In this document: positions 2,490 through 45,650 of the stretch, one piece after another | How positions within the stretch are numbered: position 1 is the stretch's first letter | How the letters are laid out: the number at the start of each line of letters is the position of its first letter | From: Planctomycetota bacterium | Lineage (GTDB): Bacteria; Planctomycetota; Planctomycetia; Pirellulales; Pirellulaceae | NCBI GenBank assembly: GCA_026692845.1 | Contig: JAPLNM010000115.1 | Coordinates: 1 to 47,258 of the forward strand | Length of the DNA: 47,258 nt | Direction: 5' to 3' | The notes under the pieces: model-generated | What the model was told of the DNA's origin: nothing | The model's database searches: none | The model's input: the letters and a program-made list of their open reading frames with translations, nothing else | Made by a program: the position numbers and the translations under genes

Positions 2490-2826
2490 GTGGCCGGTCG
2501 GCCGCGCCTAATTTTAGAAACTTTTTCGGCGGCCACTCGGTGCTGGTTGGCGTTCGCTACCGGTCGCTATCTGTCGCTCTTCGACTTGGCGGACTTGCGG
2601 TGAGTTTCGGAGGTTTGCTGATGGGCGCGCCGATACTAAAATTTTTGATGAACGAATTCTTGGACTCACCGGAGGGCTTGCGCCCAACCGCTTTCAAAAA
2701 CCCCTCGGCATGCGCCGAAATACAATCAAATCCAATCTTTCCTAAAATGATCCAAATGCCTATTTGACGGTATTGAGCTTGCGCTGCTCCGCTTTGATCT
2801 GACGGTATAGGGCGAATGTCTGTTGG

Positions 2827-3297: not shown

Positions 3298-3638
3298 CCT
3301 CGGAATCCTCGTAGTTGTGGTTTGCTTGCCTGGGCAAGAACGACTTTGGATTCCAGACAATGCGTTTTGCGTGCCAAATACGAAGCCTTCTGGGAGGCTT
3401 CGAAAAAAATAACAGCAGCGGGAATTGCACCTCCCTTGTGGGGCGAACTAGGTTCTGGATTTTCCAGGTGATCTTTTGAGGTCCCATTGAGGTCCCAAAC
3501 CCATGTTGGGAAGCTATTGGCAGTGTGCGGGAGATTTAGGCACACTTGCGACTGAAAGTTGGGCATGGTCCGGAAAAAGCCCCTCAGTCAGGGCGGCTTA
3601 ATGTTGTTCAAACAACTATTGTTTGTACAATAAAATGC
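3298..3638. other. Divergent intergenic region between membrane-protein gene and antiporter
   Basis: This stretch contains an 8-bp inverted repeat CGAAGCCT/AGGCTTCG at 3381-3402 with a 6-base loop. It also contains a direct 11-bp duplication GAGGTCCCATT/GAGGTCCCAAA near 3478-3499, and the antiporter promoter region at 3603-3631. Minus-strand frames over it show no recognisable protein. It should hold promoters for both flanking divergent genes. Confidence 0.5.
3603..3631 (+). promoter_or_regulatory. Candidate promoter and operator of the antiporter gene
   Basis: TTGTTC (3604-3609), 16 bases, then TACAAT (3626-3631) resembles a sigma70-type promoter. The -35 box lies inside a perfect inverted repeat GTTGTT-CA-AACAAC (3603-3616), a plausible repressor or activator site. 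A second short inverted repeat TTGT-TTGT-ACAA (3619-3630) overlaps the -10 box. Transcription would begin at about the ATG at 3639, implying a leaderless or near-leaderless message. Confidence 0.4.
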
Positions 3639-4962: not shown

Positions 4963-5002
4963 CGATTCGAGCGAGTGCTATTCGTCTTTCGATTACGAGC
5001 AC
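4942..5002. terminator. Long inverted repeat between convergent genes, possible bidirectional terminator
   Basis: GTGCTCGTAATCGAA (4942-4956) is exactly complementary to TTCGATTACGAGCAC (4988-5002), giving a 15-bp stem with a 31-base loop. It is made by two oppositely oriented copies of the composite repeat and lies between the convergent ends of the antiporter and giant gene A. There is no T-run, so it is not a classic intrinsic terminator. A role in 3'-end formation or mRNA protection is inferred from position only. Confidence 0.35.
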
Positions 5003-5070
5003 GAGCACCGTCCGCCACGGCGGACTGAGCACGAGCACGACGAAGAGCCAGAACAAAACCATGCACCGAA
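4988..5070 (+). repeat. Composite GAGCAC/TCGAT repeat, copy 4 (with GC hairpin and tail)
   Basis: It reads TTCGATTAC, two GAGCAC units, hairpin GTCCGCC-AC-GGCGGAC (5010-5025), CT, two GAGCAC units, then the tail AGCCAGAACAAAAC and ATGCACCGAA. It reaches to within a few bases of the stop codon of giant gene A. The core matches copy 1 (opposite strand) with one difference and the tail matches copy 2. Confidence 0.85.
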
Positions 5071-5072: not shown

Positions 5073-8000
5073 CTACATCCAGGTGCCTTTGAGGAATTCC
5101 TCATCGATGTCCGCGGACGTCTCCTTATCGGATTGGCGATCGGCGAGGCTCGCCCAGAACTCCGTGGATTCAACTTCCTGGCTTTCGATCGGGAAGATCG
5201 CTGGACCGTAGAAGTCTTGTTCGCGGGTCATGGCCGCCCAAGCGTTGGCTTGGCTACCAGCGGTGTTGAACAAGACTGCTTGTTCGACGACGCGAGGTTC
5301 TGGAGCTGCGAGAAGTCCGATCGCCAAACGGCTCGTGGAGTTCAAGGCTTCGTCTGGACCTTCGCCTGATCCGCTGTTGCCAGAGGAGTTGATGAAATCG
5401 ATGAGGCTCAACACGTCGGTCGCATCGATGAATCCATTTCCGTTGACGTCGTAGTACGGTGGCGGTGGTGGAAGCTGCTCGACGGGAATCGATGCACCTT
5501 GGGAGTTCAGCAGGTTGATGACCAACAACACGTCGATCGGGGATACGAACGAATCGTTGTTGACGTCGAACCTGTTCGTCGGATTCTGGTAAAGCGACGC
5601 TACGACTTGGACCGTCACGTTGGCAATGTTGCTCGAGAGTCCATCGTTGTCCGAGACAGCGTAAGCAAAGGTGGCTGTCCCTGTGAATCCAGCTTGTGGG
5701 ATAAACAGGATTCGTCCATCGCTTTGAGCGACTGCTGTACCGAAGTTCGGAGGCGTAACGATATTGACCGTGCTGCGGTTGATCGTGCCATCGGTATCGA
5801 AATCGTTGGCGAGAACATCGATTACGATCTGGGTGTCTCGCTTGGTGATCGCAGAATCCGCGATGGCCACCGGTGCGGTGTTGACGTTCACGGTGACGGT
5901 CGCTTCTTGGGAGTACTTCCCGAGCGAATCGCGAACGCGGTAGGTGAAGGTGTCTTGTCCGCGGAAACCGGTTTTGGGGGTATAGCGAACGGTCCCTGAG
6001 GAAGTCGGGGCGACGGTTCCATTGACGGGAAGTCGACCGATTTCGATCGATCCGATATCCAGTGGGGTATCGACATCGGTGTCGTTTGCCAAGACGGGCA
6101 GGAGCTCCGAGACGTTGAATGGCACGGTGAACGTGTCATTGTTGGCCACTGGAGCGTCGTTGATTCCGCTGACGGTGATCGAGACGGTGGCAACGTTGCT
6201 GAGCAACCCTGCGGTGTCTTTGGCACGGTAAGTGAACGTGTCGACAAGGCTTTGGCCGTCGACCATCGCACGCAGAACCGCCGAGACCGTCGGGTTGTAG
6301 ATGACCGAGCCGTCGTTGCGAACCGTCACCGAGGCTCCGAATTGCGAGCTTGCTTGGAACGACGCAATGCTCAAAGTATCGTTCGGAAGGTCTGGATCGG
6401 TATCGTTTGCAAGGACACCTGGAGCCGTCACGTTGAGGATGGTTTGCTCGTTGGTGCTGTAGCTGTTATCCAAGGCGATCGGTGCATCGTTGACTGGATT
6501 GATCGTTATCGAGAACGTCTTGGCTTGCGAACGATTGACGTTCGGTGGTGTGTTTGGACCGTTGTCGGTGGCGATCACCGAAACGATTGCAACACCCGAT
6601 GCGTTCGGAGCCGGCGTGAACCGCAGCACACCGTTGGCATCGATCGTCGGTTGCGAAGTAAACAGAGCCGGACGGTCGGCGGTTGCCGAGATCGTGACGG
6701 TTTGGTTTGCCTCGTCGAGGGCCGTCGGCGGGTTGCTGTTCATTCCTTCGGCCGGAACGATATCGGCAAGGATGATACCGGTAAAGGCACCGGAGTCCTC
6801 GCCGACGGTAAGGTTCCTGGTGGTGTTGAATCCTGGTGGATCGTTGACCGGTGTGACCGACAGCGTGAAGGTAGCAGCTTGGGAGCGGTTGTTGTTTGGC
6901 GGAGGAGCCGATGGACCGCTATCGACGGCGACAACCACGATGCTGACGGCACCGTTTGCGTCTTTGGCCAGGGTGAAGCTCAGTTGACCGGCCGCGTTGA
7001 CTGCCGGACGGACTGCGAACATCGCATCGTTGTTGGTCGTTACTTCGAAGGAAACGCTTTGAGCATTCGGACCGGAGTTTTCATCGGTCGCAGCCGGTGG
7101 GCCAGCCAAGATGTTCGTGGCCCAAGGAGCCAAGTACGCAGCGGAGTCTTCGAGTACCGTCAGGTTGCCACCTGCGGTGAACTGAGGTGGATCGTTGATC
7201 GCACCGACGCTCATGGTGATCGTGCCGGTGGCGCTTTGCTGACCAGGCTTGTAGGTCGCATCGTCGGTTACGACGTAGCGGATAAAGTCTTGGCCAACGA
7301 AGTTCAATGGTGGAATGTAATCGAATCGAACGATGCGACCGTTACTGAAGACTGGCACGACGACGCCACCTCGGGAGGTCAATTGTTCGATGTTGGTCAT
7401 CCGAATGGTTTGGCCTTCGGCGACCTCATCGGCAGGTCCCGGCAGGTCTTTTGCCAAGACATCTGCGGTTTGGACCGTGACTCGGGTGTCTTCGGGGGTG
7501 GTTGTCAGATAGCCGACCGAGATCGGTGGATCGTTCACAGGAACGATGTTGATCGTGAAAACACTTTGGACCGAGACATTGGTGTTCGGCGGCGGAGCCG
7601 AGGGGCCGTTGTCCCTCAATGTCACGCGAACCTGGGTGTTCTTGCCTGAGTTACTGTTAATGTCCTTGGCCGTTTGATAGACCAGGGTACCATCGACACC
7701 AATGGTGGGTTGCACCACGAACGCAGTGGGGTCCAATGCGACCACTTCGAACGAAAGCTCTTGATTCGATTCATCGCCTGCGGTGATTGGACCTGGGCGG
7801 ATACCGGTTGCAAAACCAGGAACCGATACGACACCTTGGTCTTCGTCTGCCGTCGTGGACGATGGAATCATGAATTCCGGAGCGTCATTGACCGGTCGAA
7901 CGATGATCGAGAACGTCGCATTCGGGCCGATGTTGTCGTTAGGGAACGGACCTGTGCGACCGTTGTCGACCAAGTTGACGATGATGATGGCCGTACCGTT

Positions 8001-11000: not shown

Positions 11001-14000
11001 GTAGACAAACGTATCGGTACCGAAGAAATCTTGTTTCGGTAGATACACAAAGGAGCCGTCGGCAGAGATCGTCAGGGACCCATGCTCTGGGCCACGGACG
11101 GGTTGGATACCCGGTTGGGTTAGGTCCGAGTCAAACACGCGGATGGCTTGCGCATCTGCATCGGTGTCGTTGGTCAGAACCCCAGCCGCAGGAACGATCA
11201 GAACATTGTCTTCGGCGACGATGAAGCTATCGGCATTGGCCACGGGCGGTGAACCGGCAAGGACCTCGATCAGATGGTCTTCGACTTCGCCGCCGATTCC
11301 CAATCCGTAGGTGAATAGTCCACCGGTGCTGCTGAGGCGGAACCTTGCGGTGGTAAAGCCAATTGAGGCACTTGCTGGAGTCGTGACGTAGAAAGTATTG
11401 GCTCCGGCCACAACGGGTTGGGCCGATAGAATGCGTTCGCCTGAGTCTTCGAAATCGTTGTCTTGATTCCAATCGATCCAAGCATCGACAAATCCGGTTG
11501 CCGACGAGGTCAGGATCACTGGGGTCGAGAGGGAGTTGGCATTGAACCAGCTTCCAAATTGAACACCTTCTTCGTCATCTGCCGAGACGGTTAGGGAGTT
11601 GTTGACAACCGAGACTGTCGGCAGCTTGAGCTTCGAATCGCTGATGGCTTTGTTGATCGCTGTTGCCAAAGCAGATGCAAAGCTGTTTGGACTTACGGTC
11701 GCAAGATTGACCGATACAGCGACATTTCCTACACCGAGAACCGTTGGGGTTGCCAGTGGGTTGGTATCGACGACTTGGAAGCCGACTTGGTTACCGTAAC
11801 CATCGGTTAGGAACATCGTGTTGCCGGCGGCAAGGCCAGTCAAAATCGACTGCACGACGACTTCGTTGGTTCCTGATTGCACGCGAGCAATTGCCCCTTG
11901 AGCATTCGACAGATCGAATCGATGAGCGCTCGAACCACCTAGCGATAGGATGTTGCCGGTGGCACTTGCATGGATTCCGGTGATGCTGCCATCGAGGATC
12001 GAGGCCAGGACCACCGATTGCAATCTAGCTGCGACATCGGCAGCGGTTACCGCACCGGCGAGGTTCACGGCACGGGCACCTGGGATTACCACAGAGCCGC
12101 CGTTGGTGAACTCATAGGTGACCGACTTCGAGACCGTATCGGAGATTGTGATCGACTTGCCAATCATCGCGAGGTTGAATGCGGAGGTCGACAGCCTAGC
12201 AGGACCTTTGTTCGAGACGCTCAGGAAGTTTGCAAGGGTTCCAAAGTCGATCGTCGAGTCAAAGTCGTCGCCATCGGCTGCAGCCGACGGTTGGCCATCG
12301 ATTTCGCCATCGGCATAGGCACCGAGCACCAGCAGGTTCGCATCGTCTGGGTAGAGACCGTGACGGACACCGTTGTTTGCTCGGAGCGTGCTGCTAGTGG
12401 ATCCAGTTCCCGGACGTTCGACCGCATCGCCGTAGTCGACAGCAACCTCAGGCATCAGGATGGTGAACTGGGTCAGGGAGTTGGCGCGGTTGGCTTGGAG
12501 ATTGTTTCCGGCCAGGTCCTGGATTGCTGGAATCGACAGCGAAGCGGCCATGCCGGTGATCGAATTGACCCCTTCGACGAAGATCAATCCGTTGGCAAGC
12601 GAGTAGGCTTTGACTCCCGAACCGACTTGGTTGAGGGCTTGGGTTATCGCCGTGGACATGGCCACTGCGTCGAAGCCGGCCACAGGAAGGAACTTCACAG
12701 GGATCGCACCGGCAGCAACACCGGGGGCACCTGCAAGGACCAGCGAGGAGTTCGAAACATTCATCGTATCGCCGACATTTCCGCCGACGACCACCCGTCC
12801 GCCCGGGATAGCCTGGACAGGCCATCCATTTTGGCGGATCAGAAGATTGATGACCGCAGCGATTTTGGCAGCGAGTTGGTCTGGGGTATCGCTGGCCAAG
12901 AAGGAGATCACTTTGGTGTTAAACAAAGTTTGCGTGTTGCCTGCGAGGTTGAATTCGAACCGGATCGTTTCACCGCCGGCGGGGGTGTAGGTGAAGGTTT
13001 GTCCGTCGGAGACGCCAGCGGCTGGAACCGTCAGGATAAACCCGCTATCGAGTTCCAACGATTTGGTTCCGCCGCCTGCGAGCGAAACGGTGAAGCGATC
13101 GCCATCGACTCGGTTGACTGCGTCGTCAGGAGCGATGACCCGCACGGTGGGCTTGTTGATCAACGTCAGCTCGTAGACGCTGTCTTGACGCCAGAATCCA
13201 GCAAGAGGGGTCAGGCGGATCGTACGGCTGTTGAAGCTGTATCCAAAGACGTAGTCGACGCCAGGGCTGAGCATGCGACCGTTCTCGGTCAGTACGACGT
13301 TATCTTGGGTGATCGTCAGCGGATCCGGACCGGTACCTTGTCGTTCATCGATGAGGATTTCGAAGTAGTCGATATTGCCAGACTTCAGCTGAACGTAGGT
13401 GTTGGATCCATCGAGGTCGACACCTGCGGCATCGTTGTCCAACGGACGTTGCAAGACCGCTAGTGGTCCGTCCAAATCGACACGATCAAGCGCACCGCGG
13501 TCGGCAAACACGTTGGAACCTAGACCACCAGGGGTGCTGACCGACGGATCGTCGCTGCGAAGAAGTCCATAGGCATCGAACTCCGGAGCGATGATCGGGC
13601 TCGTGGGCAAGCCCACTGCCGAACGGACTTGGTCCAATAGGTTACGGTCTTCGAGCGATGCGATCGACGAGTCGATGGCTCGCGAAAAGGCTTTGAGATA
13701 GAACCGATCTCGGGTTGGGTCCATGAAAAGCGGTTCGGAGGCCGTCAAGGTGATCGGGAACGACTGAGACCCATTGAGAGCCGCAGGGAGAATGTTCGCC
13801 GCGTTGCCTTGATAGAGGTTCGCACCGATAACGATCGAGCTTTGCAGGGCCGGATCGTTCGCGACGTTGATCCCGCGAGCTAGGTTCGCGAGAATATTGC
13901 TGAGGATCGTTGGGCTTGTGTTGGCCTCGACTTCGATACCCGATTGGCCCGCTCCGGTATTCAAGCCGTAGATCGTGTTGTTAACGATCCGCGTGACAGT

Positions 14001-24182: not shown

Positions 24183-24291
24183 TTGAACGAACCTTGGAAC
24201 CGTACGGTACAAAAATGGAAGGTAATGAAAGATTCAATGGATCGAGCGAAACGTTGATACCAACGCTCCGCTTGTCTTTTGGTGTGTGTTG
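24183..24291 (-). other. Gap between giant genes B and A
   Basis: Only 109 bp separate the TAA of gene B from the ATG of gene A. A 10-bp palindrome ACCGTACGGT lies at 24199-24208, and a small CGTTG-ATAC-CAACG inverted repeat near 24252. There is no stem followed by a T-run, so I see no terminator, and no strong promoter. I infer co-transcription of B and A, or a weak internal promoter. Confidence 0.5.
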
Positions 24292-30200: not shown

Positions 30201-33200
30201 CGGGGATGATCTGGTTGGCGTTGTTGCTACCGACACGACCGTTGATCCTGCGAGCAACACTCGATGTGATGGAGTAAGCATTTCGGACCACGACAAATTT
30301 CTCTGTCGTGCCGTCACCAAGAGCCGTACCGAACCCACCTGACATCGTCCGATCGTGGCCGAAACCTAGAGCCATGTGGTTCGACCCAGGCGAGTTACCT
30401 TGATCGAACGGGGAGCGGTCGTTGGTGGCGTTCGCTGTTCGGTTGAGACCAGCTTCGATTTGAGCTCCGCGAATGTTACCGGAGTTGATGCCAAGGTCCG
30501 CTCCAGCGGCACCACTGGCAGTGGGGTTAAAGCCGCTAATACCACCAAGAGGCAGTGCGGAAACCGGTGCCAGCGGGTTAGCGAAACCAAACGCGCCGTT
30601 GTTCAAGTTTTGTGCGTTGGTCATCCCTGCCCCGTTGATCGCAGCAGCGATCGATCGGGCGAGATCAGGAACTCGGTATTCAGCTCCGATGAAGACCGGG
30701 ATATTGTTGCCCGATGTTGCACCGGTTGTGGTGAACTCGAAAGTTCGAGAATTGTTAGAAGTCCCAATGAAATCCGAAACTTGGCGAATGGTGAAAGTTT
30801 CGCCATCGGCGTACGTGTTGACTTCGTCGACGGTGATAACGAACTGCTCGGGCTTGAGCACTTCGAGGGTCATGGTGTAGTCACCGCTGGTAGCACCTTG
30901 ACGACGATCCGCAAGAGACAGCGGGTCATAGGTTGTGTTGCCCGCTGCGCTTACAGCAGCATAGTAAACACCAGGTTTGGTGGCAGTGAAATCGATGTAC
31001 GGATCCTTGCTCAGGGTTTCTCCTGGAGCAGCCACATTGTCGGCAGTGGTGGCGTCGTTGCCATTGCTGACGATTTGAGCTACACCGCTTGCATCGAAAA
31101 CCTTCAGGGCCGCATCGAGTCGGCCTGCTGTATTGACGTTGATGCGTACACGTTCGCCAACCTCAAGTTGGAACTTGTACAGATCCACATCGGAGGAACC
31201 TGTCGAGAGCGGGTCCGGAGAAAGGGAGCCGTTGACAGAGTATTGCTGCGGGTTGATGCCGACGCCTTGGAAGGTCTCCGCTGCACCTGCGATGGTGTCA
31301 TTGCCATCGATATCTGTGCTTACGGCTGCCGAGGGTGCACGCCCATCGTTTCCGATAAAGGTGTTGTTAACCGCTCGAACGAATGGCGAAGCGCTGTAGT
31401 CGCCGACGCGTTGGATTTGGACCGGGGTGTTGACCGAGACGATGTACTGGGGTCCGCGAACGACCAGCGTGGCCGAGGGATAGGTCCAGGTGTCTGGAGC
31501 ATCCGGATCGCGAACGATCACTTGAGTCTGAGGTTCGATCCAAGTAGAGATGCGTTGGGTGGTTCCGTTGGTTGTCAGAACACTACCGTAGAACGAATCC
31601 CGAATGGACTTGACCATTTCGTCGGCCGCATAACCTGGGCCTTCGGTGTTGGCTCGCAGATATTGGCCCGCAGTGTCTTCGCGATAATAAATCGGAATGT
31701 AGTCGGGCGACCATCCATTGCCTCCGACGATACCGCTACCATAGGTGGGGTCACCGACTCCTGCTCCAGCGATATCCTCGAACTCGAAGCGAACCCGTGT
31801 GCGACCCAAGCCGACTTCGAGTTGGTTGGGGATCGCGTCATTGAAGCGTGAACCGGCGTGCGTACCGATCGTGTTGATCGCACCGATGGTGTCTTGGCTA
31901 CCGGGCTGAACGGTAATTCGCCATGTCGGCGTTTCACCTTGGATGTTCAATCCACCGAGTCCGGACTCATCGAAGATATTGTTTGTAACGACGATGCCGG
32001 GGGTCACGCCTGCTCGTTCAGCAACGGATCCAGGGGCTACGCCAAAGGGGACCTTGTTGGCCACCGGTAGATTCCTGGTGTAGGCGCCACCGAGTGTGGG
32101 AGGCAAGGTCAGGTTCGTCGTTCCCGTAGCGCTCAGTCTGGCTTGCTGGGCTCGGCCATCTGCATAGTACTTATCTGCCGGTGCCGACCAGACGGCGTAG
32201 TCTCGGCTCTTGGTAATCAAGTTGTTCGAGACGATGAACTGACCTTGGTCACGGGCGATGTTCTGGTCGCTTGTTCCGTCGAAGCGTTGGATGCCAGAGG
32301 TTCCTGCGACGGTGAAGATGTTCGACGCATCGATGACTTCAACGTTGCCGAACAAATCAATCACACCATTGCCATTGCCCGTAACGAGCCGGTTGCTATC
32401 GGCAGCCCGGACGTTGAGTTGCTTTTGCTGGAAGAGTTGGTTGATGATGTCACGGAACTTATCCCCCAAGCGTGCGGGTGAATCGGCTGCCGAGTAGAGG
32501 ATCGGGATGTTGCCGAAATTGACCGCACCGGTTCGAGTCCATTCGAGGGTCACTCGGTTTGCCCCATCGGTGACATCGACGGTGCTTCGATCGGCGATGG
32601 TCAGACCTGCGAGGAACTCGACGGTCGTGCTGTAGGATCCTCTGAAGTTTCTTGGGAGACTACTCAGGCGATCGCCTGTACGGATCTCCATTTGGTACAC
32701 GCCAGCCTTGGTCGAGGCTGGTTCAGCATCGGTGACAACAACTTCATAGGTCCCGCGTCTAAGTTGATCTGTTCCTAGGAAGCTGAGGAACGGATCACCG
32801 GTTCCGACCGATCCACGGGTCAGGTCGATTAGGTCAGAACCGGACAATGGACCTGGCAGATCGTCAACGATCGAGGAGCGGGTGCGAGTTGTCGGTGTTA
32901 CTGGAACACCAGGAGTTGTCGGATCATTGTCGTCGTCCAAGAGGACTTGGATGTTGAGTCGTTTGCGGTTCAGGCCGTCGGCATAATCCACATCGATGAC
33001 AACCGGGTAGCTCGATGCGAAGCTCGGGGTCTTGACATACTCGCTGGTCAAATCGCCGACCGTGAAGCGGTAGCGGTTTGTACCGCCAGATAGCGTTCCG
33101 GCGACGCTGATAGCACCTTTATTGGTCAATTGCAAAGGTCCCAGGTCGGTGATGCCGTCGGTGGTTGTGCCATCATACATCGCTGAATTGGCTTCGCCGG

Positions 33201-36200
33201 TAAGTGGCGAATTGTTTGGCAACCCGTTGATTTGGACACCATTGGTAGCATAACGGATATCGGCGTATTGGACGGTTGAGCCTCCGAACTCCTGCTGGTC
33301 TCGGAGTCGGACTTGAACCGTGTAGGATCCAGCCGTGATACCAGCAGAGGGGTTATCGATGTTGGTGCTCTTGGAGCGGATTCTAAAGAAGTACGTGCTC
33401 TGGGCTCCTGCAAGGCCTGGGAGCAGGACTCTCAATCCAGCATCCTTAGGATTCGAGGTCCCGTCTTCCTTGAGCAATCCGGAGGCATTTCTTCGTGCCG
33501 TCGAGCGGGTTCTTTGCACGATGGGATTTACGTAGTCCGGGTTGATCGAAGGATCCTTGAATAGCAGCGACGGGTTGGTCTGTTCCGCAGTGCTGTCATC
33601 GCTTCGAGCGAGCAAGTCACCATTGGCATTGAGAATTTCAATGACCGAATCGAGCGTGTCTTGAGTGTAGTCAACGTCGAACCAAACCTCGGTCCCGGCC
33701 GTGCCGCTAAAGCTGTAAAGGTCTTGGTCCGCAGACTCGCTCAGTACACCTTGGACAGTAAAGCCAAGGACGAGGTTTTCGTCGGTTGTGGAGGTATCTG
33801 GGGCCAAAGCGCCCAGAAATTGAGCCGAGAGGACCGAATCATTGATTCCCGGAGCCACAATAGTTGGGGATTCGGTTTCCAGGGCAGTGGCGACGTTTCG
33901 ATCGTTACTGAACGAATCGAAGAGCAAGCTGCGCCAATCTCCAGCTCGAGGAATGCTGGCGATGCCATCGTTGTTGGTATCGGTCTGAGGTCGCCCATCG
34001 GGTTGTGTTCCAGCACCCACGGTATCATCTCGCAGGCTCGTTATGACAACTGGGAAGCCTGGCATTCCAAGAACCTGGACTGTACCACCGACTCGGTCGG
34101 TGATGCTCGAGAAGTTGCCGGTCGCGGTAAAGCCCGTGCCTCGTTCTTGATCGAAGTTCGAGCCCTGGCCTTCCATCTTGATCACCAGCGACTCGTTAAC
34201 CGCGCTTTGGAGTCGCAGGCCACCGACCTGTTGCAGGTTGCCGACGGTCACCGAATCGAACAGCACGTGAACGATATCGGTATCATCCCAAACGCTATCT
34301 GTGGTCAGTGTATTGTGCTGTAGGTCGCGAACCGCAAGGTTGTCTTCGCTGCGGTCGTTGGTCGACGCATCAGCGCGTATTTCAATGCCGTTGATACTGT
34401 TGTTGAAGAGACGATTTCCTCGGAACAGGGGTCCGCGGTTCCAATCGAGCGTCTTGTTTCGATCGACGTTACCGGTTTGACGTCCAAGGTCCCCACGCAA
34501 CTGTGCATCCATCGAATTCGCATCGATCGTGATGGCAGTTCCGGTGTTGTTTTGGAATGTATTGTTTAGGAAGATCGGCTGAGTTCCGCGAACAAATACG
34601 GTCGACCCACGGCTAGCATTGTTGCCGAACGGATAGTTTTCGTTCGCTGGGCGTCCCAAGCGATCGATCGGACCTTGGCCCCCCATGCCGTTGCCGTTGT
34701 TCTCGAATACTGTGTTGGCGATCCTAGCGTCGGCTTGCTGGAGTTCCAAAGGACTGAATGCCTTAAAGGTACCTTCGAGACGCGAGATACCACCGGCGTA
34801 GGCGACTACCGCATTGTCGAGGCTGACGTTCGCTCCTGGCGAAGCGAAGATACCACTCCAATCCTGTTGCTTAGCGTCCAGTGAGTTGTTGAGTCCATTG
34901 TTGTTAGTATCAAACGTGCCACCGGCACCGAAGCGATCATCCTGCTTGCTGGTGAGCACGATTCGTCCACCGTCGACGCCTTCGGCCAATAGCTGGGTGC
35001 TGTGTCCGAGTTCGATCCGGGCACCTTCGAGCTTGACGATCAAGCCTGGGTCCATGGCCAGGGACGCATCGAGTCGTGGACGGACGTTTCCTGAGGTTTC
35101 GACGCTCAGGGTTCCGACCAATGACGTGCCGTTATCGACGATCGAGGTGATGGCTGGATCTCGAAGATCGGCGATAAGCGTATAGGTTCCGGCACCACCA
35201 ACGCTACTTCGGTAGATCCGACGGCCGACGTATCCGCTTTGGACGCTAGGTAGCGAGGTTAGCCGGATTGAACGGTTCGCAGGAATGGCACCCACGGCAG
35301 GGGTGGTAGTTGCCGAGGCCGTAGCGTTGGATGCAAGGCTTTCTCTGCCCATTGCATCGATCATGACGACTTTGTAGTTGAAAGATCCGATCGGAAGCGT
35401 CCCGCCGGCGATCGCATTGACTCCTACGGAGCTGACCACAGGACGATCGCGTAGCAAGCTTGCGAGTGCGTCGCTGGAGTCCGTTAGCAATCCACCGCGA
35501 TCGGTGTAAGTCGTCGAGGTGCCATCGAGTTCGGCTACCAGACGATAAGGTCCGCCTACGGAGTCGGCTCGGTAGAGTCTTCGCGAAACATATTCTCCAG
35601 AGACCCCTGGCAGGCCGATGAAGCGGACTGCGGTTTGACCCCCGGTAAGAGTCAAACGCGGCGTGGCTTCTGATGGTGGTGTTTCGTAACCGTTCTTGTC
35701 GACAAACGTTAGCTTGTACTGATAATCGCCTGGGGTCAAGCTGCCGCCTAGCGAGGGCGCCAAGGAGATCAGGTTCGAAGGAGCGATGGTGCTATCGAGC
35801 AAGCCGCCGCCTGGGTTGCCCGACACGACGATGTTCTCGGAGATCACGTGAACGATATCGGTGTCGTTGAACCGCCCTGGAACGGTCAGTTGCTTGAGCT
35901 CACCGCCTGCGGGCGTGGATACTTTGATAAACAATCCGTTGATCGAATTGTTGATCAACGTGTTGTCGTGGATGGCAGGACCAATGCGATCGTAGTCAGG
36001 GGTGAAGGAACCTTTGCGTTGGTAGCGATTGTCGCTAAAGAGAGTTTCCTCGAAGCTATCGGGCGTAGCGCTCATGGCCGAATCGGCTGCATTGGTGATT
36101 CGGTTGAACGTCACGGTGGGACGCATATCAGCGATTTGGATGCTGTTGACAGTCTGCTGGACCGAATCGATCACGACCGAACTCGAACCGCCGTAACGCA

Positions 36201-39200
36201 TGTCAGCATAGTTGACGTATTGGCGGAAGATCCCCTCGTCCTCAAGGTCGAAGCGGCCGGCCGATCGATCCAAATCTCGTTTGAAGACCAACCCGCCCCA
36301 GTCACCGGGAGTTGGAGTGGTGTTCGGAGCATAGTTGTCCAGGCCGATCGATTGATCGAGCCAGGAGGTGAAAAAGACACTGCCGGTGATTTCAGAACCA
36401 TCCGCGGACTTGATCGCATTTCCGTTTCTGTCGAGCAACTTGGGAGTGCCAAGGACTTGCAGGGCACCGCCACTGCGATCGACACCCAGCGTCGAGCTTC
36501 CTACGCCGATACGGCTCCGTCGCATCTTAAAGACCGCCCCCGCATCGACCATCACGCTTACGCCCTTGGGGACGTCCATGGTGGATCCGTCGGAGAGGAC
36601 CGAGCCGGCCAGGACACCGAAGCCAACCTCGTAGGCAAAGTTGTCGCCGACGGTTTCGAGTTTGCCGTCAGCACCACCGTTGCCAACGATTCGGATGATG
36701 TCACCCGGTACGCTGGCTGCAAAGGCGTTGGCAACTCCAGAACCGGAGATGTTGTTAAATGGTTTGGTGAGCGATCCGTCGGCGTTGGGGCCAGCGGACT
36801 TGTCGACGAAAATCGTCTTGCCCGAAAGATCGATGGCTGTCAGGCCGTTGGACAATTGCACCAATCGCTCACCCTTGAGAGTGATTCGGGTGCCATTGGG
36901 AACCGCCGTAACGCCCAGTTCGCTCCGAGAGTTGATCGCGTTGGCCAGAGCGCTAGCAAGATCGCCTGCGGTGCTATTGGAGTTGAAAATCACGGCGGTA
37001 TTGCCGACACCTACGATAGGATCGAGGCTGAATTCAAATCGGCGAACCGTGCCATTGCCACCGGTGATTGTGACGATACGAGTATCCAGCGCCGCATTGC
37101 CACCGGAGTTGAATCGCAAGACACGATCCAAAGGCCGTGTTTCGAACCAATAGTTGTAAGTGCCTCCAGGTACGCCGTCTCCATCTCCATCAAATGTAGC
37201 TTTCACGTCGCTCGAACCATTGTCGACGTCTTGGAGCGAATCGGTCCCATCGGTTTGAGCGCGGAAGGTAACTCTCAGGTCGTAACGGCCTTGAGTCCGC
37301 CCGCCATTGCCAGTTCCAGGAACCGACGCGTCGTACTTGTCGTTGCCTGAAGCGGAGATACCGATGAAGTAAACGCCCGAATCGAGTTGCATTCGGATCA
37401 GAGAATCTTTTCCGAAATAATCATCGTTCTGAGCGATGAGATTGACGTTGCCACCGGCAAGAATGATTGGCGAGTAGGTGATGTCTCGATTGCCGACCTT
37501 GGTGGTTTTGTCCCCTTTGACCAACTCCACTTTGACCAGTCCTCTGGCAGCAGGATCGTTGTCCAATGCCCGGAGGAACTCCTCCAGGGTCGATTCGCTA
37601 CCGACCGTCGAGTTCAGGTCGATGGAGATCGCGTTGGGGAATGTGTTGACGATCGGTTGGGCACCGACACCACGGTTCGATCGGGTGACGAAGACCAGCA
37701 AGTTGTTTCCGAGTTTACCGGGTTCGACAGCGGTAAACTTGACCTCGATACCACCACCGGCTCCCAGGTTGGAAACCGCCGTGGCTTGGGTTTGTTTGTA
37801 GAGTGCCAATCGGGTATCGAGTGGACTGCTGCTTGCGAGTCGTTCGGCTAGGGACTCGACGACCAAAGACCCTTGGCGCGTTTGTCCATTGGGTCCAAAG
37901 TCGACATCGAATTTGTACAGATCGATATCGCTGCTTTCGGGTCGATGGAGGAAGTTGGCGCGAAGGACATCGAGATTGCCCGGGAATACGGGTTCAAAGT
38001 CGCGATTCGAGGACGTCGGGAAGTTGAGGAAACCGGAATTGAAATTCATCAATGTCGATGGGTCGGCATCCCCGGCGCGGGCTAGACCGAGCAACATGCC
38101 AATACTGGCCATTGCACAACGGGTGAAGTTTTCACCGTAGTTGTCGTTCCAAGTGTTGTCGGCCGAGAAGACCGCCAGGCTGTTTTGGTAAGCCGGGTCG
38201 ATGCGAACACCCCAACCACCGCTTGCGGCGTTCTCGACGGTCAGACCGCCTGAGGGGAGGGCGGCCAAGGCCCCGAGGGCCATGGTAAAGCCGCTATCTG
38301 GGGTCTCGACAAACTGAACGCCGACATACTCCGACCAAAGCGAGAAGGCCTCGCGAATCCGAGCCTTCTGCTTGTCGGTGATCGCATTGGATTGATTCGT
38401 ACCAGCGACTGTGCCGTAGGCATCTTTGAAGTTGTAATAGATTGTCCGTATGCCTTGGGAGTTATCGCCGGTGAACGCCGGGTTGATGTAGTTCTCAAAG
38501 GCTTCGGGAACGTTTCGCGTTCCAGGATCGTTGTTGGCGCCGATCAAATCCAGCGCATGGACTTCTGGATCGATATTCGATGTTAAAAGCAGGCTCGTCA
38601 GCGGTACATCTTTCGAGCCGATGGTGCCGAGGTTGGTCGATGTATCAAAGGAGGATCCCAGGCCGACAAGAGCGATCGGAGAGTAGTTGATCACTCGGTT
38701 TCCGACGACGGTATTCCCGTTGCTGCCCGGTTCTAGCGTCACGGTCATCAGTGGCGAGGAGACCGTTGAGGTGTTCATCGCGTCGGCGATTTCGTTGGCG
38801 GTTACGTCCGCGCGGGCCATGTCAACGACGATCACGCCACCGACGTTGGAGACCGTCGGGGTGCCACCCGAGAGGGAGTTTACAAAGGAGATTTGCAGAC
38901 CCGATCCGGATTCGCCGAGTGTTTTCGCAGTGAAGCGAAGTTTCACGGCCGCATTGGTATTCAGATCCGAGATCGCGGTGGCGGCTGCCTCGTTTCGTAC
39001 CGGTGCAATCGGGGTGGTTTCCCGTGTTCCGATGCGCAAGCGGAAGGAGCTCGAGGGGATGAAGGGCCCCGGGAGTAGATCGATGTCCGAAGAGAATCGC
39101 AAGGTCGCCGTATTGGCCGAAGCGTTGTAGGTAACTCGCTCGGGCTTGAAGGTGATATCGTCGGTGTTTCGGACTGTGTTGGCCGTGTAAAGAAGCTGAT

Positions 39201-41484
39201 AGAAATCAGGGTTCTCAGAGCTGCCAGCGGTGGGGTTACCGAGCGAGTCGTTTTCTACGAAGAGTTTTTCGTTATCGAAGTAGACAACGATCGTATCGCG
39301 ACGCTGCTCGAGGACTCCGGAGGTATTACGGACTACGGGCTGTGGAACAACCGCTGTGACTTTGGATCCCAAATCGAGTCGGAACTCAAGGGTGTCTTGT
39401 CGAGTGTTCGCATCGCGAGGAACGAACAAATCGCCGGTGACATTTCGCAAACCGGTAATCCCTCGGAGTGTATCATCGAAGCCATAGACTTCGATCCGGT
39501 AGTTGTCATCGGGAAGGTTTTCGGCAAACCGCAGGGTGACTTCGTTTTCGTTGGGGTTGTCGCCAACAATGACCGCTCCGGGATTGATGATCACGTCGTT
39601 GCTCTTGGCAAGCACGATCGGCGAGTAGGTCGATGGGTCAGTAAGTCCTAGGGGGGTGGCAGCAAAACCACCGTTGATCTTCGCAGAGAGTTTTGAGGCG
39701 ACAGGTGACGAGGGCGAATTAACAAAGTCCACCAACTGCTTAGCAGTAACCGTAGAACCGCTTCGCGAGTTGAGCACGACGCTAATGACATCGCCAGAGA
39801 TGCTCAATTGCGGCGGAGCTCCTATCCCCAAGTCCGCGCGAGTCACGTTGATTCGGAGCGAATCGGTGGCGTTGCGAGCCGTCAGTTGAACATCGACTTT
39901 TCCGTTGGTTCCAAAGTCGGTAGAAACACTAGGTAGGCCAAAAGAACCATCCCCACCGGCGCGGGTCACTCGAATGCCGCTGACAGTTGCCGGATCGATA
40001 ATCTGCGCGTCGTCGAAGCGGAAGGTCAACTCGCGAGGCGAGACCGTGCGGACCGAACCGTTTTCAATCAGCTCGCTGTTGTTGGGTTGGACACCGATCA
40101 AGATCGGACCGGTGGAGGTCTTGGCATACGCTTCGAACTTCAGACTGTACATCTGCGTTTCGCCAGCAGCACCTGCCAAAACTCTGAGGAAATACGCACC
40201 TGGGGTAAGGTTCGGGCTCTGGAGAATCTCAGGTAGACCGGCTGGACTAGAGTTGGCAACCGCCACCACTTCGCCGTTGAGCCGTTCAATTTGGACCGAT
40301 AGATTCCGATTAACCAACGTGTTAACCGTTGTGGGCTGACCACCCTGTGGGCCGACATCGTATTGCTTACCAACCGGGATGAGCGTGACTCGCTTGAGCT
40401 TGGCACTGCCCACAGTAAACAGATAGACGTCGGTGTCTTCACTGCGATCGATCGAGAGGTTGTCGTACTGATTGACACCGTTGCCAAGCAGACCCAGATT
40501 CGAAGCTTGACTCGTCGAATCGTTCTGCTCGTAGGTGTCGCCGTAGAGGGTTTGTGTAGCAAGGATATCATCGTGCTGAGCGCCGTAGTAAGCAAACGAA
40601 ACAAACGGCTCCATCAACTTGGTCTGATCCGTGGGGATCACGTGTCCAAGACCAATCCCGTGCCCGATCTCGTGCGAAAGGACGTTATGAAGCCCTCGGT
40701 TCTCTCCGGTCGCTCCATCGGAGCTCAAGCTGTAAAAGTTGTCTGACGTATCGACGACCATATCGCCGTCGGTGCCCGAGTTGCCACTGCCAGTTGGGTA
40801 GAAGGCGTAAGCTAGAATACCTGAGTTACCATCGACCGCTGCACCACCGACGCGCATGTCACCGCGCACACCGATCACGCCCCGCGAAGCTGCACCGTAA
40901 GCAGCGCCATCGTCATTGGGTTCGTAGATAAAGTTCAAGCCAGAGACGCTGGCCCAGTTCTCGTAGGTCCGACGGACCAAGTTAAACCATGGCCGACTGG
41001 CCACCGGTCCGGGAGATGCCCCATAGATGCCATCCATGAAGGAGATAAAGTTCGATGGAGCCAAGCCGCCGTTGATCGTGCTGACTTGGGTTCCATCCGG
41101 AACAATGCTCCAGGAAACCGACGCCGGATCGCCGTTGTTAGGACTCGAACCCCCTACAGGATTGATCCATCGGTTCCCAGAAAGATTGATGTTGCCCCCG
41201 CCGTTGGCGCTACCTGCACCCCCGAGAAGATTCGCACCGCCGCCACCGCCACCACCGTTGGCACCACCTTGGTTCTGACCGCCGTCGCCAGAACCCAGGA
41301 GCCTGAGCTGATCGGTCATTCGTGCGAAGTACGCTGGATCGGTGCCTGCATCGAAGATGCCAGCTGCATCCATCACCTCCCGACGTTCCAGATGTTCGCA
41401 CAGCAATGAGCGGAAGCTCAAGCGACGCGAAGACCTCTGCTGCGAAGGGTGACGGTTCTTGGACCTGGATTCATCAATTCCCAT
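24292..41484 (-). CDS. Giant gene B: LEPR-XLL / double metzincin (one dead) / beta-helix / GEVED / cadherin-like / dockerin surface protein
   Basis: The product has 5730 residues from ATG 41484, with GAAGG ten bases upstream. Order of regions: LEPR-XLL motif (residues 29-38); a Gly/Asn-rich linker about 60-110; an intact metzincin-like domain with HEIGHGIGLGH at 271-281; PPC-like domain near 350; three 'YSPI' modules about 525-1345; and a second metzincin-type domain with its site destroyed (ASIGMLLGLAR at 1126-1136). PPC-like domains follow near 1180, 2595 and 3440, with beta-helix repeats between about 1580 and 2450. A run of 'DG..FEF..AIN' modules covers about 4070-4610. D-Y-G-D-A-P and GEVED lie at about 4825-4915, then six cadherin-like modules and a type I dockerin pair (about 5557-5640). 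It is clearly homologous to gene A over most of its length. I infer an exported surface or secreted protein; protease activity would depend on the N-terminal site. Confidence 0.9.
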   Translation of the reverse strand: MGIDESRSKNRHPSQQRSSRRLSFRSLLCEHLERREVMDAAGIFDAGTDPAYFARMTDQLRLLGSGDGGQNQGGANGGGGGGGANLLGGAGSANGGGNINLSGNRWINPVGGSSPNNGDPASVSWSIVPDGTQVSTINGGLAPSNFISFMDGIYGASPGPVASRPWFNLVRRTYENWASVSGLNFIYEPNDDGAAYGAASRGVIGVRGDMRVGGAAVDGNSGILAYAFYPTGSGNSGTDGDMVVDTSDNFYSLSSDGATGENRGLHNVLSHEIGHGIGLGHVIPTDQTKLMEPFVSFAYYGAQHDDILATQTLYGDTYEQNDSTSQASNLGLLGNGVNQYDNLSIDRSEDTDVYLFTVGSAKLKRVTLIPVGKQYDVGPQGGQPTTVNTLVNRNLSVQIERLNGEVVAVANSSPAGLPEILQSPNLTPGAYFLRVLAGAAGETQMYSLKFEAYAKTSTGPILIGVQPNNSELIENGSVRTVSPRELTFRFDDAQIIDPATVSGIRVTRAGGDGSFGLPSVSTDFGTNGKVDVQLTARNATDSLRINVTRADLGIGAPPQLSISGDVISVVLNSRSGSTVTAKQLVDFVNSPSSPVASKLSAKINGGFAATPLGLTDPSTYSPIVLAKSNDVIINPGAVIVGDNPNENEVTLRFAENLPDDNYRIEVYGFDDTLRGITGLRNVTGDLFVPRDANTRQDTLEFRLDLGSKVTAVVPQPVVRNTSGVLEQRRDTIVVYFDNEKLFVENDSLGNPTAGSSENPDFYQLLYTANTVRNTDDITFKPERVTYNASANTATLRFSSDIDLLPGPFIPSSSFRLRIGTRETTPIAPVRNEAAATAISDLNTNAAVKLRFTAKTLGESGSGLQISFVNSLSGGTPTVSNVGGVIVVDMARADVTANEIADAMNTSTVSSPLMTVTLEPGSNGNTVVGNRVINYSPIALVGLGSSFDTSTNLGTIGSKDVPLTSLLLTSNIDPEVHALDLIGANNDPGTRNVPEAFENYINPAFTGDNSQGIRTIYYNFKDAYGTVAGTNQSNAITDKQKARIREAFSLWSEYVGVQFVETPDSGFTMALGALAALPSGGLTVENAASGGWGVRIDPAYQNSLAVFSADNTWNDNYGENFTRCAMASIGMLLGLARAGDADPSTLMNFNSGFLNFPTSSNRDFEPVFPGNLDVLRANFLHRPESSDIDLYKFDVDFGPNGQTRQGSLVVESLAERLASSSPLDTRLALYKQTQATAVSNLGAGGGIEVKFTAVEPGKLGNNLLVFVTRSNRGVGAQPIVNTFPNAISIDLNSTVGSESTLEEFLRALDNDPAARGLVKVELVKGDKTTKVGNRDITYSPIILAGGNVNLIAQNDDYFGKDSLIRMQLDSGVYFIGISASGNDKYDASVPGTGNGGRTQGRYDLRVTFRAQTDGTDSLQDVDNGSSDVKATFDGDGDGVPGGTYNYWFETRPLDRVLRFNSGGNAALDTRIVTITGGNGTVRRFEFSLDPIVGVGNTAVIFNSNSTAGDLASALANAINSRSELGVTAVPNGTRITLKGERLVQLSNGLTAIDLSGKTIFVDKSAGPNADGSLTKPFNNISGSGVANAFAASVPGDIIRIVGNGGADGKLETVGDNFAYEVGFGVLAGSVLSDGSTMDVPKGVSVMVDAGAVFKMRRSRIGVGSSTLGVDRSGGALQVLGTPKLLDRNGNAIKSADGSEITGSVFFTSWLDQSIGLDNYAPNTTPTPGDWGGLVFKRDLDRSAGRFDLEDEGIFRQYVNYADMRYGGSSSVVIDSVQQTVNSIQIADMRPTVTFNRITNAADSAMSATPDSFEETLFSDNRYQRKGSFTPDYDRIGPAIHDNTLINNSINGLFIKVSTPAGGELKQLTVPGRFNDTDIVHVISENIVVSGNPGGGLLDSTIAPSNLISLAPSLGGSLTPGDYQYKLTFVDKNGYETPPSEATPRLTLTGGQTAVRFIGLPGVSGEYVSRRLYRADSVGGPYRLVAELDGTSTTYTDRGGLLTDSSDALASLLRDRPVVSSVGVNAIAGGTLPIGSFNYKVVMIDAMGRESLASNATASATTTPAVGAIPANRSIRLTSLPSVQSGYVGRRIYRSSVGGAGTYTLIADLRDPAITSIVDNGTSLVGTLSVETSGNVRPRLDASLAMDPGLIVKLEGARIELGHSTQLLAEGVDGGRIVLTSKQDDRFGAGGTFDTNNNGLNNSLDAKQQDWSGIFASPGANVSLDNAVVAYAGGISRLEGTFKAFSPLELQQADARIANTVFENNGNGMGGQGPIDRLGRPANENYPFGNNASRGSTVFVRGTQPIFLNNTFQNNTGTAITIDANSMDAQLRGDLGRQTGNVDRNKTLDWNRGPLFRGNRLFNNSINGIEIRADASTNDRSEDNLAVRDLQHNTLTTDSVWDDTDIVHVLFDSVTVGNLQQVGGLRLQSAVNESLVIKMEGQGSNFDQERGTGFTATGNFSSITDRVGGTVQVLGMPGFPVVITSLRDDTVGAGTQPDGRPQTDTNNDGIASIPRAGDWRSLLFDSFSNDRNVATALETESPTIVAPGINDSVLSAQFLGALAPDTSTTDENLVLGFTVQGVLSESADQDLYSFSGTAGTEVWFDVDYTQDTLDSVIEILNANGDLLARSDDSTAEQTNPSLLFKDPSINPDYVNPIVQRTRSTARRNASGLLKEDGTSNPKDAGLRVLLPGLAGAQSTYFFRIRSKSTNIDNPSAGITAGSYTVQVRLRDQQEFGGSTVQYADIRYATNGVQINGLPNNSPLTGEANSAMYDGTTTDGITDLGPLQLTNKGAISVAGTLSGGTNRYRFTVGDLTSEYVKTPSFASSYPVVIDVDYADGLNRKRLNIQVLLDDDNDPTTPGVPVTPTTRTRSSIVDDLPGPLSGSDLIDLTRGSVGTGDPFLSFLGTDQLRRGTYEVVVTDAEPASTKAGVYQMEIRTGDRLSSLPRNFRGSYSTTVEFLAGLTIADRSTVDVTDGANRVTLEWTRTGAVNFGNIPILYSAADSPARLGDKFRDIINQLFQQKQLNVRAADSNRLVTGNGNGVIDLFGNVEVIDASNIFTVAGTSGIQRFDGTSDQNIARDQGQFIVSNNLITKSRDYAVWSAPADKYYADGRAQQARLSATGTTNLTLPPTLGGAYTRNLPVANKVPFGVAPGSVAERAGVTPGIVVTNNIFDESGLGGLNIQGETPTWRITVQPGSQDTIGAINTIGTHAGSRFNDAIPNQLEVGLGRTRVRFEFEDIAGAGVGDPTYGSGIVGGNGWSPDYIPIYYREDTAGQYLRANTEGPGYAADEMVKSIRDSFYGSVLTTNGTTQRISTWIEPQTQVIVRDPDAPDTWTYPSATLVVRGPQYIVSVNTPVQIQRVGDYSASPFVRAVNNTFIGNDGRAPSAAVSTDIDGNDTIAGAAETFQGVGINPQQYSVNGSLSPDPLSTGSSDVDLYKFQLEVGERVRINVNTAGRLDAALKVFDASGVAQIVSNGNDATTADNVAAPGETLSKDPYIDFTATKPGVYYAAVSAAGNTTYDPLSLADRRQGATSGDYTMTLEVLKPEQFVITVDEVNTYADGETFTIRQVSDFIGTSNNSRTFEFTTTGATSGNNIPVFIGAEYRVPDLARSIAAAINGAGMTNAQNLNNGAFGFANPLAPVSALPLGGISGFNPTASGAAGADLGINSGNIRGAQIEAGLNRTANATNDRSPFDQGNSPGSNHMALGFGHDRTMSGGFGTALGDGTTEKFVVVRNAYSITSSVARRINGRVGSNNANQIIPESGISISSGATPTLMNNAFINVQSPIVQEPPTYVGTIVGAVNPARPAAVVVGGNTYQYVEPAKPDSNLTWGNIEAVPTNVPNTSSDFNFIASDTEKLLVDFPGNNFLPGSGSQIIDSSINSLPERESFRAVKSAVGIAPSPILAPDRDYYGIFRADDPNVAPPSGLGGNVFKDRGAVDRADFVGPTAVSLLPIDNDAQQVDSDKTVSVIQLTGGVYPEFRIQLKDGFETANLGGGTGINDDSVIGRTGGNRLPGSAVTITENGRLLIEGIDYAFSYNTTTNEIVLKPLAGVWRNQRVYDININNKDRFVVNANSGDQINDGDSFSIKDSNGGNVTFEYESGYRLQIPQGLQLNLPLAGGGAGGILDGDRFTINSGSATYAFEFDSNANVINPAARVVRFTSLSTKQQVVESLIAAINSPAIPGVVASLTSDGYIFIGAPIGTTIDTESAPSIQQPNPTIGLLVPSLGTRPGGITDGQTFSITDGRVAVVFEYDSDGTTQPGNVLVDISQANSDRDVATATQLAIAGSTLALRSSVVNGNVIHLSLPTAGRVDVVSTELNIVGVARTIQDGQTITITRNIAGSIVSTTFEFTTDASFTAGNIPVIFGPTDTQSQIGEALASAIASAGLGLSPQHVGNGNVIIGGSSDYSISVANAPTVGLFGQPGVQGRTTIEIFGTLLLQVPARGGADLVDNTSFTITNRNLTAIFEFDGNFSGSTIPGSRTIRFGGTSTQNDVVNAMIAAINGFPGLGVTARDAGNGRVDIGLLPTSAVNVQDSKLTTARGNAQDGDYFSITDGVKTVTFEFENLSVGNGRDPSRVPIRYTNQDSVQRVYEAMKATIKSSVLNLDSQITSTGLELFDTAKYLTNVDNAPSLRRTGVPGGAIPVLFIQDPSFTAINMRDAIIRAINGLSAAGGTSLVAKVRGGSTLFVENAVSISPELSSFFLRGVQDNAGNFLQSNRIDNETKFTIIMPGVELDYGDAPDPFTTTLGRYPTLKANDGARHVVSNSSLYLGAGITSESDGKPQPLGDGDENDDGVSFRFQANSFTGTQTPMFNKNIDTELTVTMSAPGVLNGWIDFNFDGDWADPGENVFDNVVFSSGSLTQTLKVRVPATAPNVTLATSSFARFRASTAGSLTPTGLALDGEVEDYRVSIVPGTPPVGVNDTYTMNEDQFGGLVTNDPFDSDGFPGNNGVLANDINPDRKPLSARLVTPPTNALVFQFRADGTFDYIPNPDYFGQDSFVYVVTDGVLDSLLPATALINVRPVNDPPIAGNLNYSINEDQRLDIPGSVVIAASVPGPANESDQTLTILSVDALSARGGSVRFVAGLITYIPLANFVGNDSFTYTIIDNGITGNLLDPLTAVGTVFISVLDKNDPPVTTNKTLNTDEDIPVSISIDDLIAGDTVGPADEQLIQTLSFSGLINPTAQGGRVEIVGDRVVYYPPSHFNGVDTFRYLVTDDGLSNGQPDPQTSQGTVTINVAPVNDPPFVLKPFGTVTVLEDSLEKEYVLSQFFGDPDIVTNGDVLTYRIASNSNTGLVEPTFAGGKMFVRPKADQNGQATIVVEAMDLAGLKTTNTLRLIVTPVDDDPRLVSPLPDRTISEDSLPLVFDLSPGFFFDPDVINGDFLTFTATSSNTNVATVSIQGNKIQLTLVPNASGQTTITVVATDTTSRFVSDSFILTVSPVNDAPVALPDSYATPQGITLVTTDPLGTLTATTLDDGVLANDRDPEGDAMTASIVSLPTRGTVTLNPNGTFTYTPGPTALFGSTDTFTYRAIDAFGAASPQTTVTITIGRAPAPAYQNPSQRWDVNADGFISPIDVLILVNLLNSRGSSIPVAGLPGPPDYVDVNGDNFVTPLDVLAVVDKINSMSGSGEGEQIVGINTAPRIDSMVVEVGRGLGSSTQMPAWAAMMGTRNSNAAKIAAMPLASMFANNSWDDDFDDLAGLWASQPKSAGDLNDKNSSIDQALSDLFGE
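24825..26735 (-). repeat. Cadherin-like module array of giant gene B (six modules)
   Basis: Six modules bounded by N-D-P-P, D-D-D-P or N-D-A-P signatures lie between the GEVED domain and the dockerin. They lack the G-F-x-T-N-I / G-P-x-x-A-x-D-E pattern that dominates gene A's array. The first and last are of the V-L-A-N-D type. The paralogues have therefore diverged most in stalk length and module type. Confidence 0.75.
27660..29275 (-). repeat. Tandem 'DG..FEF..AIN' modules in giant gene B
   Basis: About five consecutive modules of roughly 90-110 residues follow the pattern D-G-x-x-F-x-I-x-D-G, then a V-x-F-E-F/Y strand, a V-P-I/V-x-F strand, a helix ending A-x-x-A-I-N, and a closing G-x-V-x-I-G. 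Single copies occur elsewhere in B (near 30600-30820, 32400-32620 and 36830-37120) and in A (near 12840-13110, 14570-14810 and 16100-16280). I cannot assign a named family. Confidence 0.6.
37450..39905 (-). repeat. Three 'YSPI' modules interleaved in the N-terminal third of gene B
   Basis: Copies lie at about 39600-39905, 38665-38955 and 37450-37755, each about 95-100 residues. All start with a V-x-F/L-T-A strand and continue with S-G/L-G-N-x-L or equivalent, a P-x-V/I/L strand, V/I-x-V/D-L and a helix. Each ends in Y-S-P-I-V/A/I-L; two carry V-G-N-R before it. They are interleaved with the other regions of the N-terminal third. I see none in gene A. Function unknown. Confidence 0.6.
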
Positions 41485-42464: not shown

Positions 42465-42482
42465 ATGAATCGCAACGTATGA
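42465..42482 (+). other. Five-codon leader frame overlapping the mutS start (ATGA)
   Basis: ATG-AAT-CGC-AAC-GTA-TGA ends with its TGA overlapping the mutS ATG in an ATGA junction. AGGA immediately precedes this frame but is 13 bases from the mutS ATG, a poor distance. Translational coupling from the leader is possible but unproven. Confidence 0.25.

Positions 42483-45094: not shown

Positions 45095-45650
<556 letters not shown>

Follow-up and report, generated by a model that had tools for sequence, protein, structure and literature searches.

An ancient B-then-A pair of giant candidate surface proteins in Pirellulaceae, with a dead matrixin domain in the aligned B-types

Planctomycetes are rich in giant genes whose role is not established, and passages of earlier papers already point to a likely surface role for them (PMC5177795, PMC11573180, PMC2754498). 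The locus studied here, in a window of 47,258 bp (the whole stretch of DNA that was analysed), carries two such genes in tandem and shifts the question from what one big adhesin does to what two paired giants do jointly. Giants of this class are known, as the first-pass annotation said, both from the literature and from other giant dockerin proteins of the host genome. What had been overlooked here is that the pairing is ancient. The aligned B-types carry a dead protease domain, and a conserved hairpin occupies the junction between the genes. We propose that the two are giant adhesins of the planctomycete class, exported to the surface and kept since ancient times as a pair in the order B, then A, a reading to which, mechanism included, we would give about an even chance.

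The host is a freshwater Pirellula-like bacterium of the Pirellulaceae, represented by a draft genome of 5.24 Mb in 182 contigs (96% complete), and its closest relatives are MAGs labelled Pirellula sp., Planctomycetaceae or Planctomycetota bacterium. The two genes had been described as tandem same-strand giant paralogues, and so they are: A and B lie head-to-tail on one strand, both in frame and free of internal stops, with 109 bp between the stop of B and the ATG of A at 24182. The gene mutS lies upstream of the pair on the opposite strand (42479-45094), and a Na/H exchanger gene at 3546-4898 faces the end of A. BLASTP aligns A with B in 13 mostly colinear blocks (the best with 39.5% identity over 911 aa, E 1.7e-159); several fall outside the cadherin-like repeats, so that a check for homology beyond low-complexity modules came out positive. 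A third paralogue, C, of 5182 aa, sits on another contig of the host genome and, in the single-contig genome G006, 2.7 Mb from the pair. Dockerin matches number 25 in the host genome; some of them lie in bigger open frames (11906 and 10865 aa) and a further one in a frame of 5205 aa, so that A and B are members of a class. Their features are as follows.

24292..41484, minus strand: giant ORF B, first of the pair, 5730 aa
41371..41391, minus strand: B, N-terminal LERREVM motif, of the planctomycete export-signal type according to passages of PMC8567305
40540..40980, minus strand: B, site-1 matrixin (Peptidase_M10, Pfam) with intact HEIGHGIGLGH
37765..38481, minus strand: B, pseudo-metzincin (site 2), ASIGMLLGLAR in place of HExxHxxGxxH, predicted MMP-like fold (alignment and model)
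32728..36819, minus strand: B, conserved core, residues 1556-2919, partly modelled as a right-handed beta-helix
33304..33900, minus strand: B, domain of collagen-binding/PPC-like fold inside the core
27340..29118, minus strand: B, tandem block of an unnamed ~100-aa repeat (FEFD-type)
26755..26994, minus strand: B, GEVED domain (Pfam)
24955..26754, minus strand: B, cadherin-like/Big_9 (tandem-95) stalk, ends approximate
24613..24792, minus strand: B, dockerin type I (Pfam)
24295..24411, minus strand: B, acidic C-terminal tail, ending SIDQALSDLFGE
24245..24272, minus strand: B-A intercistronic hairpin without U-tract
5073..24212, minus strand: giant ORF A, 6379 aa from a TTG or 6369 aa from the conserved ATG at 24182 (MGIDAS)
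24075..24095, minus strand: A, N-terminal LERREVM motif
22485..22898, minus strand: A, matrixin (Peptidase_M10) with intact HEIGHLLGLDH at 22494-22526
22086..22316, minus strand: A, PPC domain (Pfam)
18270..21845, minus strand: A, core homologous to the core of B
11532..13019, minus strand: A, copies of the unnamed ~100-aa repeat
11268..11489, minus strand: A, GEVED domain (Pfam)
5583..11267, minus strand: A, cadherin-like/Big_9 stalk, longer than that of B, ends approximate
5388..5570, minus strand: A, dockerin type I (Pfam)
5076..5168, minus strand: A, acidic C-terminal tail, ending DIDEEFLKGTWM

Pfam finds Peptidase_M10, PPC, GEVED, Cadherin_4/5 with Big_9, and Dockerin_1 in both proteins, which bears out the PPC, GEVED, cadherin-like and dockerin modules first read from the letters, and leaves large stretches unmatched, including the ~100-aa repeat. 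Other parts of that description hold in part. The order of modules is indeed common to A and B, but B has an extra matrixin at its N-terminus and lacks the catalytic motif at the site homologous to that of A. The beta-helix is below threshold in Pfam but has the support of a fold model. Foldseek on its own is weak for the core of B (4 matches at E<=0.001), and the statement on its fold comes from a separate fold comparison; the collagen-binding-like fold within it resembles one in a clostridial collagenase. As for the N-terminal signal described as LEPR-XLL, the LERREVM motif is present in both proteins, but NF012209 matches neither at E<=1. With the Pfam family of such signals, PF07595 (Planc_extracel), A scores 19.0 bits against a cut-off of 25.5, and B has no match at E<=1.

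These features resemble two known groups of giants. LExR-signal proteins of planctomycetes, for which passages of PMC8567305 (citing Studholme 2004) describe both the export motif and giants bearing it, share the LExRxxM-type N-terminal motif and the size; they differ in that A stays under the PF07595 cut-off and B is unmatched, and those passages do not mention a paired arrangement. Export through the LExR motif is itself a published hypothesis. Fibrillar adhesins, as far as passages of PMC8286594 describe them, have the same long stalk of tandem Ig/cadherin-like domains, found here in both A and B, together with adhesive-type domains; A and B add a matrixin or pseudo-matrixin, a dockerin and a tandem paralogue. 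In the mechanism that we propose, both proteins would be exported and would display their beta-helix and collagen-binding-like ectodomains on long Ca-dependent stalks.

The first-pass annotation had proposed to look for the pair in relatives, and it is kept there. Counting every paralogue type, 65 of 80 genomes, host included, have a match to the core of B. The core-domain tree of 108 rows (107 de-duplicated cores plus C, from a quick search with SH-aLRT supports and without bootstrap) separates 65 B-types from 43 A/C-types with an SH-aLRT of 99 on each side, and thus shows at the sequence level that B-types and A/C-types diverged long ago as sister lineages; taken together with the gene order in relatives, this makes the pair ancient. 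In 16/16 pairs measured, A follows immediately behind B on the same strand, and B took the first position in every adjacent pair encountered. Within the genus, this arrangement was recognized in 15 of 27 genomes, host included, the other 12 being unresolved or doubtful. The 15 comprise 11 with measured gaps, G019, and G001, G003 and G007 (loci L103, L150, L111); G003 has two cores on one contig, and at L103 and L111 the downstream ORF best matches the A of the window. Among the remainder, B runs off the contig in G020, the A-like gene of G022 has an unrelated upstream neighbour, and ten further genomes have many of their core matches on short or separate contigs.

The B-first order recurs in five other genera: G036, G038 (B, A, A'), G048, G032 (B, A, A) and G041 (B, A'). 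In the Rhodopirellula clade, all seven ORFs just upstream of A-type loci match B references best (K23_9, Rhodopirellula europaea, R. rubra, R. sallentina, Aporhodopirellula aestuarii, Neorhodopirellula pilleata and Stieleria tagensis), these loci having been chosen for a giant partial ORF in that position and some possibly sharing species with the numbered genomes. The syntenic orthologous pair, with a dead protease domain in every aligned B-type, is a defined target in cultured strains of this clade. Deviating loci were also seen. G049 and G064 have matches at single places only, G044 has no match, and in G046 the locus is broken by frame shifts and accompanied by an unlinked second copy. The giant upstream of L172 is A-like and that of L120 is not clearly of either type, while five A/C-type loci (L145, L147, L173, L174, L179) have no giant ORF directly upstream within the flank examined. 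Retention in tandem does not prove that A and B function jointly.

The junction between the genes is conserved as well. The distance from the stop of B to the conserved start of A is 96-110 bp in 11/11 Pirellula pairs measured, and a hairpin begins at a fixed place, ~14-20 nt past the B stop. Within 75 nt downstream of the stop codon, z scores of -2 or lower occur at 9/10 B stops, against 2/10 A stops (G006 and G018) and 8/83 other stops, the latter ending mechanical ORFs of at least 250 aa from the same contigs rather than curated genes. When the stems of 8 of the 11 sequences are superimposed, 80/88 cells are paired, against 41-52% when slid, and all 11 positions covary, with pair types differing on both sides; the arms were placed by eye around the loop, which biases these counts toward structure, and G006, G009 and G024 were left out. 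Folding of the whole gap against shuffles (n=11) gave eight z scores of -2 or lower, one of -1.87 and two of -0.41. RNAalifold on a MAFFT alignment of the 11 gaps is weak (-1.78 kcal/mol, 5 pairs), because MAFFT leaves the stems unaligned.

None of the junction sequences examined has a run of at least five T close behind the hairpin, and simple consensus searches of the junction returned no promoter-like or terminator-like site; U-tract hairpins do follow A in G018 and G002. A hairpin without U-tract at a fixed place favours a single B-A transcript. Co-transcription, which had been put forward as probable, thereby gains two indirect signs, the near-constant gap and the conserved hairpin, and we infer that A and B are made from one transcript in which the hairpin would protect an mRNA end or set the B:A ratio, rather than terminate. 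Such a hairpin could still terminate by another route.

The same observations bear on the strongest alternative, that A and B are independent adhesins left in tandem by an old duplication, each giant working alone and sharing with the other its location and nothing else. The host does have other giant dockerin proteins, A-types also stand alone (G043), C sits elsewhere, and long genes can keep their order passively. Yet independence fits poorly with the narrow range of the gap, with the covarying hairpin stems and with an order that is identical across genera. We regard independence as possible, though clearly less probable than the paired arrangement proposed above.

The first-pass annotation gave a protease to each partner, which is half right. 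The window indeed has a matrixin in both proteins: that of A reaches 28.2 bits with PF00413 and site 1 of B, the extra N-terminal module, 49.3 bits (cut-off 24), their catalytic motifs being followed by TIM and KLM, respectively, read by eye as the Met-turn. At the site of B that is homologous to the matrixin of A, however, the motif is lost. Across the aligned set (91 of the 108 tree rows, the others lacking the region or failing to align), HExxHxxGxxH is intact at site 2 in 0/49 B-types, two of which (L124, L127) align oddly there, and in 15/42 A/C-types; two A-types among those without the strict motif deviate at the glycine alone. These counts do not represent independent events, because the rows include near-identical relatives. 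Site 1 has a limited distribution. It occurs, among the proteins examined, in the B of G010, G001, L102, L111, L116 and L132 and in A-type proteins of G024, G038 and L172, and this patchy spread over B of a Pirellula subclade and three A-types looks like that of a gained or shuffled module. The pairs of G009, G016 and G036 have HExxHxxGxxH nowhere in either protein, and those of R. europaea and R. sallentina lack it in the parts examined. The A-types examined in the Rhodopirellula clade have a dead site 2 as well. A protease in each partner by design is therefore not supported, and since some pairs have no intact matrixin motif, protease and pseudoprotease do not make a fixed division of labour. 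A search with Peptidase_M11 gave no match, and none in its controls either.

Loss of the motif has not meant loss of the domain. The model of site 2, built from a 55-row alignment (pLDDT 81.6, pTM 0.74), resembles karilysin, snapalysin and MMP catalytic domains, with karilysin as best Foldseek match (E 2.9e-6, TM 0.66 by target length), so that in the model B site 2 keeps the matrixin fold. Comparison with G010 gives a dN/dS of 0.045 for site 2 and 0.039 for site 1, and comparison with G001 gives 0.064 and 0.028, respectively; these values, rough because dS is near saturation, show purifying selection on site 2 in the lineage of the window. Judged by the alignments and the model, the conserved trait is the fold and not catalysis. 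Passages of PMC11266112 link inactive metallopeptidase homologues to binding, regulation or scaffolding, and B resembles them in being a dead copy alongside active relatives; a bacterial matrixin pseudopeptidase within a giant surface protein is not covered in those passages. We propose that the dead matrixin of B serves as a binding or scaffolding module, and that the catalytic one, usually on A, would be an optional extra for trimming partners or the surroundings.

The two genes also share a pattern of synonymous divergence. When the window is compared with G010, dS starts at 0.65 and 0.90 over the first 300 codons of B and A, rises to 1.0-2.7 in B 301-4500 and to 1.0-2.1 in A 301-3600, and falls to 0.18-0.78 in the terminal stretches that begin at B 4501 and A 4201, with flanking ORFs at 0.10-0.64. 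In the same comparison giant C is flat (0.29-0.77; genes near C up to 0.86). Other comparisons give dS of 0.05-0.50, which is low, for G010 with G019, and of 0.13-0.98 for G009 with G016, with a peak at A 2101-2700. Against the more distant G001, B has dS of 1.05-2.2 (two windows saturated), no higher than mutS at 1.56. Relative to G010, then, A and B both appear to have divergent ectodomain alleles, and recombination is the likely cause of the hump in this one species pair. The hump can also be read as the mark of old alleles.

Because the hump occurs jointly in both genes, it hints at swapping of matched alleles, and this is one element of a more ambitious reading in which B and A build a single heteromeric surface apparatus: the dead matrixin would be a dedicated partner or regulator of the matrixin of A, the hairpin would set their ratio, and ectodomains would be exchanged between lineages as matched alleles by recombination. 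We consider this version improbable.

More doubtful still is that the dockerins anchor A and B on a cohesin scaffold, which would collect enzymes at the surface as in a cellulosome. Both dockerins do exceed the Pfam cut-off, and passages of PMC6461901 propose a cohesin-dockerin peptidase complex, the 'planctosome', for lake Planctomycetes, in which dockerins would likewise act with metallopeptidases; cohesin matches occur in 20/60 genomes at E<=0.01 and exceed the cut-off in 11/60. Here, however, matrixin and dockerin share one giant chain, and the host genome has no cohesin (PF00963) at E<=1, a search that was positive in a control genome and that a strongly diverged cohesin would escape. At E<=0.01, cohesin matches are also absent from G006 and G036, two single-contig genomes that bear the pair, and cellulosome-type docking is therefore unlikely as a conserved role. 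A diverged partner may exist: in eight genomes of the genus, an ORF of 1549-1596 aa shows a cohesin-like match that is weak or borderline. The position of the dockerin varies too, since in 7/19 host dockerin proteins examined (L084, L089, L090, L091, L094, L096, L098) it lies close behind the N-terminal LExR-type motif and not near the C-terminus. For A and B, we think it more likely that the dockerin is a Ca-folded C-terminal module, or binds something besides classical cohesin.

A similarly small probability goes to A and B being secreted digestive metalloproteases, in which the matrixins are the working part and the remainder serves delivery. The intact motifs of the window and the collagen-binding-like fold in the core, known from a clostridial collagenase, would suit this function, but it sits badly with the aligned B-types, none of which has the strict motif at site 2, with its absence from 27/42 A/C-types, and with the retention of the pair in the Rhodopirellula clade despite dead A-type sites. 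Least credible by far is an artefact of assembly or annotation, with chimeric or decayed ORFs: the genome is a draft and frame breaks affect the relatives G019, G023 and G046, but the ORFs of the window are intact, their dN/dS against G010 is low (B 0.063, A 0.085), and the same kind of pair stands in the single-contig genomes G006, G032 and G036.

In the open literature, most subscription journals lying outside our search, we found no description of the B-A pair or of its pseudo-matrixin. The closest case is a trio of giants with consecutive tags in Stieleria varia, Pla52n_17480, Pla52n_17490 and Pla52n_17500 (6271, 7630 and 6858 aa), annotated as tandem-95 repeat, uncharacterised (pectin-lyase-related) and matrixin proteins (PMC7717043, Table 2). 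These are likewise giants of adjoining tags in Pirellulaceae, likened to A and B by annotation and not by sequence; the passages of PMC7717043 that list them do not discuss adjacency, conservation or dead protease sites.

Several minor observations concern the repeats and ends of these proteins. The ~100-aa FEFD repeat has many copies among the Pirellulaceae giants examined and no convincing Pfam family: one of 11 copies had a weak Flagellin_IN match (E 0.0049), and the best hit in a PDB sequence search had E 0.34. A second unnamed module, of ~105 aa, has three strong copies in B (residues 524-626, 841-941 and 1240-1344) and two in C, with none reported in A. The C-terminal tails look alike by eye and were considered as a genome-wide sorting motif, a candidate that profile search did not bear out: a profile of 20 tails gave good E values in the host genome only for A and B, both members of its training set, the next having E 0.74.

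At the DNA level, an Rfam search of the window returned no family at gathering score. A GC-rich dispersed palindrome occurs at 4997-5038 and 2193-2234, and its 42-base pattern has 26 matches in the host genome with at most 3 mismatches (reversed control, 0). Beyond mutS lie a 57-bp tandem repeat and perfect arrays of 6-bp and 5-bp repeats (46310-46456, 45213-45325), with matches between the 57-bp array and G010 at many offsets.
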